From Flavobacteriales bacterium (GTDB lineage Bacteria; Bacteroidota; Bacteroidia; Flavobacteriales; Schleiferiaceae), in assembly GCA_017795025.1 (NCBI GenBank), contig CP051243.1:2237501-2301500 (forward strand): 64,000 bases of DNA. The letters are read 5' to 3'. Each line of letters starts with the position of its first letter. Position 1 is the stretch's first letter. Positions 181-34,257 of this stretch are shown here, one piece after another. Both the position numbers and the translations under genes were made by a program. The notes beneath the pieces are model-generated. The model saw only the letters and a program-made list of their open reading frames with translations, did not search any database and had not been told where the DNA came from.

Positions 181-931
181 AGGAACTGTTTTTATAACCG
201 GGGCCACCAGTGGCATTGGCAAAGCAACTGCCGAGCGTTTAGCGCAAGAAGGCTATAAATTGATTTTATGCGGCCGACGTGCGGATAGATTGGAAAACCT
301 TAAAGCAGAGTTATCCGTTTCTACTGAGGTGTATAGCCTAGTGTTTGATGTTCGCGACCGTGAAGAAGTAATCCAGCAGATAAACAGTTTACCCGAGGCC
401 TTTCAAAACATTAGCGTACTCATCAACAATGCCGGAAACGCGCATGGCTTAGACCCCATTCAAAATGGCAATTTAGACGATTGGGAAGCGATGATGGACA
501 TTAACGTTAAAGGTTTGCTGTATGTCTCAAAGACCATTATGCCTCGCTTTATTGCCGCTCAAAAAGGGCATATCATTAATATCGGTTCAACCGCAGCTAA
601 GGAAGTTTACCCGAATGGAAACGTGTATTGTGCTTCTAAACATGCGGTAGACGCTATCAATCAAGGCATGCGAATCGACCTCAACAAGCACAATATTAGA
701 GTGGGTGCGATTCACCCCGGAATGGTGGAAACCGAATTTAGTGAGGTCCGATTTAAAGGGGACACCGAAAAAGCCGGGAAGGTTTATAAAGGGTTTAGAC
801 CCTTACAAGCCGAGGATATTGCTGATATCATTTCCTTTGTGATTAGCCGGCCCTATCACGTAAATATTGCCGACCTCGTGGTGATGAGTGTCGATCAGGC
901 CAGTAGCACCATCGTTAATAAAACGACTTAA
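167..931 (+). CDS. SDR-family NAD(P)-dependent oxidoreductase (YdfG-like)
   Basis: A classical short-chain dehydrogenase of 254 residues. The Rossmann motif TGATSGIG is at 11-18, NNAG at 87-90, and the catalytic set is Ser141, Tyr154 and Lys158 (YCASK). The family includes YdfG, which oxidises 3-hydroxy acids and serine with NADP; the real substrate cannot be read from the sequence. There is no signal peptide, so it is cytoplasmic. The start at 167 overlaps the end of recJ by 14 nt; a second ATG six bases later (173) is equally possible. The stop codon overlaps the stop of the convergent M23 peptidase by 4 nt. Confidence 0.9.
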   Translation: MSMDKGTVFITGATSGIGKATAERLAQEGYKLILCGRRADRLENLKAELSVSTEVYSLVFDVRDREEVIQQINSLPEAFQNISVLINNAGNAHGLDPIQNGNLDDWEAMMDINVKGLLYVSKTIMPRFIAAQKGHIINIGSTAAKEVYPNGNVYCASKHAVDAINQGMRIDLNKHNIRVGAIHPGMVETEFSEVRFKGDTEKAGKVYKGFRPLQAEDIADIISFVISRPYHVNIADLVVMSVDQASSTIVNKTT

Positions 932-33395: not shown

Positions 33396-33482
33396 GGAGA
33401 GGTGCATGAGTGGCTGAAATGGCACGCCTGGAAAGCGTGTGTGCGGGAGACCGTACCGAGGGTTCGAATCCCTCTCTCTCCG
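33396..33482 (+). tRNA. tRNA-Ser (anticodon GGA)
   Basis: An 87-nt gene with a long variable arm, as expected for serine. The acceptor stem pairs GGAGAGG with TCTCTCC (one G-T pair), the anticodon stem pairs CACGC with GCGTG around loop CTGGAAA with anticodon GGA at 33430-33432, and the T arm is GAGGG-TTCGAAT-CCCTC. The discriminator base is G and CCA is not encoded. It decodes UCC and UCU. Confidence 0.96.
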
Positions 33483-33486
33483 CAAG

Positions 33487-33522
33487 AATCCCGCGCAGCG
33501 TGAGCTGTTGCGGGATTTTTTT
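33487..33522 (+). terminator. Terminator of tRNA-Ser
   Basis: The stem AATCCCGC/GCGGGATT with an inner CAGC/GCTG pair and a GTGA loop is followed by seven T residues, starting 5 nt after the tRNA. Confidence 0.88.
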
Positions 33523-33570
33523 ATACACCACGACTCTGAGCGAAGCTCAAGGGAGGGGTGTATAAAAAAA
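33515..33570. repeat. Inverted repeat linking tRNA terminator and tandem array
   Basis: The terminator tail ATTTTTTTATACACC (33515-33529) is repeated in inverse as GGTGTATAAAAAAAT (33556-33570). Outside it, CAAGAATCCCG after the tRNA is mirrored by CGGGATTCTTG at about 33599-33609. The first array unit therefore begins as an inverted copy of the tRNA downstream sequence. Confidence 0.7.
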
Positions 33571-34074
33571 TACCAGGGCATGGAGCGTAGCGAGATGTCG
33601 GGATTCTTGATGACGGTACCCCCTTAGGGTTCAGCGACTGTAAGGGGCTAATCCCCTACCTAAGTATAACCTAAATTGAACCCAGCTAATCATATAGGTG
33701 CTCAAAAAAATACAAGGGCATGGAGGGTAGCGAGATGTCGGGATTCTTGATAACAGCTCCCCCTTAGGGTTCAGCGACTGTAAGGAGCTAATCCCCTACC
33801 TAAGTATAACCTAAATTGAACCCAGCTAATCATAGAGGTGCTCAAAAAAATACAAAGGCATGGAGCGTAGCGAGATGTCGGGATTCTTGATGACGGCTCC
33901 ACCTTAGGGTTCAGCGACTGTAAGGAGCTCATCCATTACCTAAGTAAACCGTACTCTGAAACCAACTCTTACCAGAGGTGCACAAAAAATCCCAAGGCAT
34001 GGAGCGTAGCGAGATGTCGGGATTCTTGATGACGGTACCCCCCTAGGGTTCAGCGACTGAAAGGAGCTAATCCC
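33557..34074. repeat. Tandem array, 140-bp unit, 3.7 copies
   Basis: Units start at 33557, 33697, 33837 and 33977; the last is truncated at about 34074. Each holds a GCATGGAGCGTAGCGAGATG block, CGGGATTCTTGA, then AGGGTTCAGCGACTG between partly complementary arms (such as CCCCTTA/TAAGGGG), then TAATCCC or a variant. Copies 1 and 2 are nearly identical; copy 3 diverges in its last 40 nt. No protein is encoded. On the minus strand unit 4 keeps an AATCCC/GGGATTTTTT terminator-like hairpin that units 1-3 have lost. Confidence 0.88.
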
Positions 34075-34085
34075 TCTCTCTCCGC
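34069..34085 (+). repeat. Second copy of the tRNA-Ser 3' end (att-like direct repeat)
   Basis: The 17 bases AATCCCTCTCTCTCCGC exactly repeat positions 33467-33483, which are the T-arm and acceptor 3' strand of tRNA-Ser plus two bases. The two copies are 602 bp apart and bracket the tandem array. This is the structure left by integration at a tRNA gene, but no integrase lies between them. Confidence 0.75.
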
Positions 34086-34114
34086 CTTCGCTTGCTGAAG
34101 CAAGCTACGGCGGA
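34081..34114. repeat. Nested palindrome (REP-like)
   Basis: TCCGCC/GGCGGA outside and GCTTGC/GCAAGC inside around a TGAA loop form a 34-nt hairpin. The string TTCGCTTGCTGAAGCAA from it recurs at 34220-34236. This may be a dispersed extragenic repeat. Confidence 0.6.
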
Positions 34115-34155
34115 CAAGGTCCGGTGTAGCAGCGAAAGCAATGCTAACTTCTACG

Positions 34156-34187
34156 AATCCTCATCATTTTTGGTGAGGATTTTTTTG
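34156..34187 (+). terminator. Terminator at the end of the tRNA-array region
   Basis: Stem AATCCTCA/TGAGGATT with a 10-nt loop is followed by T residues on the plus strand. A terminator here suggests that transcription from the tRNA side can cross the array. Confidence 0.75.
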
Positions 34188-34257
34188 TTCCATTAATAAA
34201 ATAGTTCGGGGCTTAGAGCTTCGCTTGCTGAAGCAATGTAGGCTTCCCATTAAGATT

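Follow-up and report, generated by a model that had tools for sequence, protein, structure and literature searches.

A tandem hairpin array 3' of tRNA-Ser(GGA) in a Flavobacteriales genome is probably a compact form of tRNA-linked repeat

The tandem array that lies 3' of the tRNA-Ser(GGA) gene in the window (the whole stretch of 64,000 nucleotides that was analysed, from a Flavobacteriales bacterium) is probably a tRNA-linked repeat (TLR) of a compact form that is spread through the Bacteroidota, and it is placed between two terminators. Its units are anatomically well defined, its hairpin is linked to tRNA genes, covaries and matches the T-stem of the neighbouring tRNA, and the number of units differs between congeners. 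By analogy with the E. coli repeats, the array is probably transcribed by read-through as an RNA that mimics the T-arm. TLRs have been known since 1978, amount to 22 at ten loci in E. coli K-12, and are of still unsettled function (PMC8144298). To date they have been described in E. coli and related bacteria, and our search of the open-access literature found no report of them in Bacteroidota, to which the present assignment would extend them as a cassette placed behind many tRNA genes.

Anatomy of the tRNA-Ser(GGA) locus

The tRNA-Ser(GGA) gene, the source of the copied 3' end, occupies positions 33396-33483 of the forward strand (ARAGORN; Rfam RF00005, 51.6 bits) and is followed on the same strand by a first terminator, T1, at 33485-33522 (AGAATCCCGCGCAGC...GCGGGATTTTTTT; terminator scan, fold of 33485-33625 with z -5.1), an inverted copy of T1, four hairpin units of about 140 bp, a 17-nt copy of the tRNA tail and a second terminator, T2, at 34155-34186 (GAATCCTCATCATTTTTGGTGAGGATTTTTTT; terminator scan, fold z -5.6). 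Unit 1 (33564-33703, 51.1 bits) contains an inverted-terminator motif, CGGGATTCTTG, at 33599-33609, a C-rich block and a hairpin at 33619-33662; unit 2 (33704-33843, 56.6 bits) has its hairpin at 33759-33802; unit 3 (33844-33982, 48.1 bits) has it at 33899-33942, with AAT changed to CAT; and unit 4, the last one (33983-34085, 56.8 bits), has it at 34038-34081 and runs on into the copied tail. Tandem Repeats Finder delimits the array at 33564-34074 with a period of 140, 3.7 copies and 89% matches, in full agreement with the original prediction of about 3.7 tandem units of 140 bp. The downstream stretch at 34086-34225 (forward strand) is homologous to the one found 3' of a tRNA-Ser(UGA) array in the same genome and ends the cassette that the two loci share (BLASTN of both loci).

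The last 17 bases of the tRNA gene, AATCCCTCTCTCTCCGC (33467-33483), recur exactly at 34069-34085 on the forward strand, 602 positions downstream, as had been noticed from the letters. The best match reached in 2000 shuffles of the downstream DNA was 15/17, with a mean of 10.4. All 17 nt are copied (CCA is not encoded), from the same AATCC boundary as in E. coli. The prediction that the last unit continues into the true acceptor end was likewise borne out, and units 1 to 3 carry no copy of the tail. GGGTTC, AGCGACTG... and AATCCC follow one another in the units at 33627, 33767, 33907 and 34046; the pattern had been claimed for each unit, but unit 3 departs from it (TCATCCA). An inverted copy of the terminator region is also real: CAAGAATCCCG at 33483-33493 corresponds to CGGGATTCTTG, and in the inverted repeat at 33516-33570 (assigned to neither strand) the T1 tail, TTTTTTTATACACC at 33516-33529, pairs with an A-rich segment, GGTGTATAAAAAAA at 33557-33570, which marks the start of the inverted copy. 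It had been ascribed to the first unit, but its CGGGATTCTTG part is found in all four.

At gathering threshold, Rfam recognised nothing but tRNA in the window and 13 relatives. Readings as a group I intron, a ribozyme or attC were considered and dropped; cmscan showed no such family. The folds of single 140-nt units, on either strand, were no more stable than those of shuffled sequences, a point that counts against the TLR reading, as does the lack of a tail in three of the four units of the window; structure was therefore assessed from covariation.

Such a direct repeat of a tRNA 3' end around about 600 bp resembles an attL/attR pair, and the array could be what a single integrative element (phage, ICE or island) left behind in tRNA-Ser, with a later tandem expansion of the remnant. 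We consider this highly improbable. No integrase or element gene is present between the tail repeats, which enclose only the array, or among the Pfam-scanned neighbours (ExbB/TolQ, ExbD, two DUF4386 proteins and a zinc-type alcohol dehydrogenase), consistent with the earlier remark that an integrase is lacking; the hairpin pattern has 0 matches in viral_contigs, on which ground a viral origin was also rejected; and in distant genera the same hairpin follows many different tRNAs at a constant spacing. Since its core is conserved throughout the phylum, the integrase is absent and the class resembles the E. coli TLRs, the relic of a single integration is unsupported. The other two readings first offered, a mini-element using the tRNA tail and an array of small structured RNAs, came close to the one we favour.

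A conserved and covarying hairpin core

The gap-free consensus of the hairpin obtained from relatives reads GGATC A-N-C GA CY G-N-A RG GA G-N-T AATCC, that is, A-N-C, a tandem G.A, C-Y, a GNA triloop, R-G, G.A and G-N-T in the place of the T-loop. In 123/145 units the left side is not GGTT but GGAT, the reverse complement of ATCC, so that in most relatives, which have GGATC and not GGTTC, the stem (GGAT/ATCC) is two pairs longer than a normal T-stem. The proposal of a T-arm split by an insert therefore holds literally at the window locus, but not for most relatives with their GGATC and longer stem. Two other candidates for the main stem, HP1 (GGGATT...ATCCC) and ACGGT/ACYGT, were rejected because relatives do not keep them.

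A strict version of the pattern, searched in genome_contigs over 84,980 genomes, matched 113 stretches, nearly all from Bacteroidota, against a chance expectation of about one match as estimated from the pattern length. In a strict-filter search 5/392 Bacteroidota genomes were positive, a lower bound given the strictness of the filter and the degenerate hairpins that model R1 scored weakly or missed. Matches beyond the phylum occur in an archaeal MAG (L126), a Bifidobacterium MAG (L182) and a Gemmatimonadota MAG (L176). L126 has the same type of tRNA-Glu locus as a Bacteroidota MAG (L148), so these matches may come from misbinned contigs. L176, on a contig with many tRNA genes, is the sole match among 200 Gemmatimonadota genomes, and is thus either rare there or part of a misbinned contig.

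Across 64 gap-free sequences, the middle inner pair (16-30) is CG in 32, GC in 22 and AU in 5, and the pair under the triloop (21-25) is CG in 43, UA in 18 and UG in 3, with no C.A at all. The observed covariation score was not attained in any shuffle, and the core predicted by RNAalifold is the same. Counted over the whole stem, G.T is no commoner than A.C (24 vs 38), so that selection at the RNA level is not demonstrated, a further point against the TLR reading. Shorter forms of the hairpin have lost one base per side, on both sides together, and in the most strongly reduced forms what remains is a stem with a loop of three bases: AGC-GCA-GCT (L014), AAC-GAG-GTT behind a tmRNA and AT-GAA-AT behind a tRNA-Pro.

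These properties bear on the idea that the array is an ordinary tRNA terminator region duplicated in tandem. T1 is indeed a normal intrinsic terminator and parts of it are inverted in every unit, but the hairpin has no T run after it, is conserved and covarying, and matches the T-stem rather than the terminator stem, which makes a duplicated terminator hardly credible.

Linkage to tRNA genes and copying of their ends

A co-oriented tRNA gene was found within 700 nt upstream of the first copy in 86/113 stretches, compared to 195/2260 for random positions in the same stretches; a further 17/113 have a contig end too near for an upstream tRNA to be judged. The remaining 10/113, with no tRNA found upstream, speak against the TLR reading, as do core-like copies located away from tRNAs in one genus. 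The genes concerned are those for Pro, Ser, Met, Tyr, Arg, Val, Gln, Glu, Phe and Gly tRNAs, and the distance to the first copy has a median of 138 nt, with 66/93 values at 120-155 nt. As the first pattern favoured T-arm-like flanks, the core was also searched alone in 29 genomes, yielding 62 matches compared to 3 for the reversed pattern, and the loci newly found in this way, with other flanks (L271-L273), likewise lie behind tRNAs.

The hairpin flanks agree with the T-stem of their own tRNA at 114 of 279 against 71±6, and at 132 of 279 against 83±7, a level reached in 0/5000 shuffles, and the agreement holds on both strands. Exact copies of the tail are present behind Ser, Glu, Val, Arg and Pro tRNAs and behind tmRNA, which indicates a systematic use of the tRNA tail; they sit in the distal unit in 11/13 cases. 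An inverted copy of the locus's own terminator region precedes the hairpin, scoring above the 95th percentile at 63/66 loci, with a median of 44.5 for the own locus vs 18 across loci. In compact forms an inverted copy of the acceptor is absent (3.22 vs 3.37 expected).

Two loci show particular arrangements. In one of them (L293, G013:C54, about 1500-1540 on the minus strand), the unit behind the tmRNA gene has its core reduced to AAC-GAG-GTT and finishes with the tmRNA 3' end copied exactly, AATCCCACCAGCTCCACA. In the other (L287, G034:C32, 50-175), a tRNA-Ser(GCU) copy has its own T-loop split by an insert of about 35 nt, GGGGGTTCGA-ACCGGAACG...GGGAGGTA-ATCCCCCTCTCACCGC, and is probably a recombinant between a tRNA and a TLR.

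The same layout could have arisen as a by-product of replication, by template switching at the palindromic T-loop (TTCGAA) and the terminator, giving direct, inverted and direct copies whose arms are kept complementary without any function. The order found at most loci, tRNA end, terminator, inverted terminator, inverted T-stem, hairpin and direct T-stem (with or without the tail), is the one expected from it; back-copying would yield both the inverted terminator copy and the 5' GGAT that prevails over GGTT; and in a published case template switching was able to create and maintain RNA hairpins (PMC8794818). This process fails, however, to explain a core that is conserved throughout the phylum and resembles that of E. 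coli (tandem G.A, GNA triloop), and the compact forms devoid of an inverted acceptor copy also speak against it. We regard it as unlikely, while treating it, together with the mobile hairpin considered below, as a serious rival of the TLR reading.

Copy number and possible exchange between loci

The host chromosome (3.44 Mb, complete-looking) carries a second array, 3' of tRNA-Ser(UGA). The cassettes behind tRNA-Ser(GGA) and tRNA-Ser(UGA) align from the T-arm to 34225, beyond T2 (BLASTN). About 55.5 kb are common to the two ends of the contig (G000:C1:1 to about 55551 and C1: about 3383441 to 3439134), with 1 mismatch in 6001 bases checked at the far end; from this terminal overlap, the contig is an untrimmed circular chromosome, and the tRNA-Ser(UGA) array locus therefore occurs twice in the assembly. 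Its two copies differ by one exact 143-bp unit, which reflects either copy-number variation or an assembly difference, so that copy number possibly differs within the assembly. The overlap aside, this genome has two hairpin loci, and other genomes have one to a few.

Congeners differ in the number of units. At the orthologous tRNA-Ser(GGA) locus there are four units here, a single one in G004 and G005, several (more) in G003 and no recognisable hairpin in G001; per locus, 3.7 units are counted in the window and 1 to 6 in relatives. Neither of the findings that would have refuted the original prediction was made: the repeats are linked to tRNA genes, and their copy number is not fixed. Entire terminator cassettes differ between congeners at orthologous tRNA-Ser genes, and a reading of the flanks within the genus showed that many tRNA-Ser genes and Ser-Pro pairs are followed by degenerate hairpins, which model R1 scores weakly or not at all.

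Further intergenic repeats of the AGATGTGAGAATTGAGACCGCTTCGCTGGGAG type are located 3' of the cassettes at two congener loci (L015, L013). Mini-tRNA-like sequences, GGAGAG-CTAGGTTCAAAACCC-TCTCTCTCCGCA and GGAGAAGGGTTCGAGAACCTCTCTCTCCGCA, which correspond to the acceptor stem and T-arm of tRNA-Ser with the remainder absent, were met in L014 (G001, about 315-350, minus strand), L093 (G005, 1231-1265) and L013 (G004, 1380-1412); each is followed by a TLR-like cassette, and their folds have z -3.9/-3.3 for the first sequence and -1.6 for the second. Away from tRNAs, core-like hairpins CCGGAGCGAAGCG-AGCTCAACGACCGGAGGGAGTT flanked by AATTGAGAA-type repeats were seen at L296, L300, L303 and L304 (G026, G034).

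Variation of this kind could also be produced by a mobile hairpin resembling a MITE or REP, which would insert at the 3' ends of tRNA genes, duplicate the tail as its target repeat and spread selfishly, without serving the host through any RNA. Its patchy distribution (5/392 in the strict-filter search) and occurrence behind many different tRNAs, the attR-like position of most tail copies in the distal unit, the differences in entire terminator cassettes among congeners, the single cassette common to the two tRNA-Ser loci of this genome and the dispersed core-like copies with AATTGAGAA-type flanks in one genus all fit such an element. Yet it encodes no enzyme and typically has few loci per genome, the greater part of the unit is no constant mobile sequence, because the terminator copy and the T-stem are specific to each locus, and homologous recombination via common tRNA-Ser ends also accounts for the sharing between loci. 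We therefore judge a mobile element rather unlikely.

Proposed mechanism and significance

If the array is a TLR, each unit may be viewed as a hairpin cassette imitating the top of the neighbouring tRNA: an inverted terminator copy, then a stem equal to the tRNA T-stem and a conserved hairpin that replaces the T-loop, followed in the fullest form by the 3' strand of the tRNA acceptor. Read-through of T1 would transcribe the array as far as T2, in the manner reported for rrA/rrB/rrF TLRs. As the copied T-stem and tail would make this RNA resemble a tRNA end, it might fold and then be trimmed or protected like one, giving small stable RNAs; on the simplest model, the T-arm mimics in the read-through RNA are possible substrates for trimming or protection by tRNA-end enzymes. 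Units would multiply and shrink via recombination between repeats, and cassettes may shift between tRNA loci via common tRNA 3' ends.

On a broader and more tentative reading, which we would not favour at present, TLRs could be an old and widespread class of T-arm mimics on the 3' flanks of tRNA and tmRNA genes, with an RNA on which tRNA-end enzymes act and a function that Bacteroidota and Enterobacteria share, or else a new kind of element that restores itself from a copy of the adjacent tRNA end. If the compact form does sit behind many tRNA genes and tmRNA across the Bacteroidota, the class has a much greater age and range than was assumed. Constant parts (T-stem closure, GNA hairpin, inverted terminator, distance) can be told from variable ones by the comparative signal, a split that turns TLRs from a curiosity into a testable subject. 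The cassettes may also mislead tRNA annotation and assemblies, since they are often found at contig ends.

Comparison with known systems

The array shares with att sites of integrative elements a direct repeat of the tRNA 3' end that begins in the T-loop, but differs from them by the absence of an integrase, by a conserved hairpin instead of cargo, by tandem units and by its fixed distance behind many tRNAs. Like REP/BIME, it consists of intergenic hairpins of unknown or selfish nature; unlike them, it is bound to tRNA genes and its stem sequence tracks the neighbouring tRNA. Many dispersed near-identical copies, a trait of REP/BIME or MITE, are absent from this genome.

The closest resemblance is to the TLRs of E. 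coli (tyrT RtT RNA, Rfam RF00391; rrA/rrB/rrF). These come in arrays of one to five units, with the final 18-19 nt of the upstream RNA gene repeated at the unit 3' end, and those of rrA/rrB/rrF have a terminator on either side, are transcribed through read-through and give an RNA that is bound by Hfq and CsrA, a clear phenotype being absent (PMC8144298). In the tyrT repeats of one E. coli record, the tRNA is copied from the same AATCC boundary as in the window, and the repeats are closed by GGGGAAGGAU/AUCCUUCCCC and contain CGACC-C-GAA-GGG. Like the E. coli repeats, the window array lies directly 3' of a co-oriented tRNA or rRNA gene, falls within the range of one to five units, copies the upstream gene from AATCC at the unit 3' end (here in the last unit only), has units closed by the T-stem sequence and bears a C-n-GAA-n-G hairpin near their 3' end; like rrA/rrB/rrF, it is bracketed by two terminators. 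It differs in its compact units, with a 17-nt core hairpin vs a multibranched loop of about 90 nt, in the lack of a tail copy in most units, in the inverted terminator copy within the unit and in the phylum.

Covariance models do not link the two ends of this comparison directly. Rfam RtT did not match the window units up to E=10 and model R1 did not match E. coli, two results that weigh against the TLR reading; since RtT misses the window units, TLR membership rests on intermediates and shared architecture. RtT matches a relative from the same family over the full model length at E=0.0035, and six genomes of genus g96, from another class of the phylum, with a best E=1.7e-7, all below the gathering score; among 14 control genomes E. 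coli alone was matched. The same-family RtT-like relatives (L286/L287/L291) were found by model R1 independently of RtT, and R1 did not match g96. In three genomes of one genus of the window's family, the tRNA-Ser(GCU) units are complete acceptor/T-stem minihelices with a long loop, an architecture into which the L286 unit folds unprompted (z -5.1). The g96 matches lie behind tRNA-Ser in the loci inspected, L314, L317 and others being RtT-type arrays 3' of tRNA-Ser genes just below the Rfam gathering score, and RF00391 could be broadened to take them in. Unlike the window units, the RtT-like relatives of both groups have a full-length loop with GAGAACC...GGTTCGA and GAGCGAAGCG-type segments; their acceptor and T-stem minihelix with an expanded T-loop, placed behind tRNA-Ser and matched by RtT, makes them the intermediates between the compact array and the repeats of E. 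coli.
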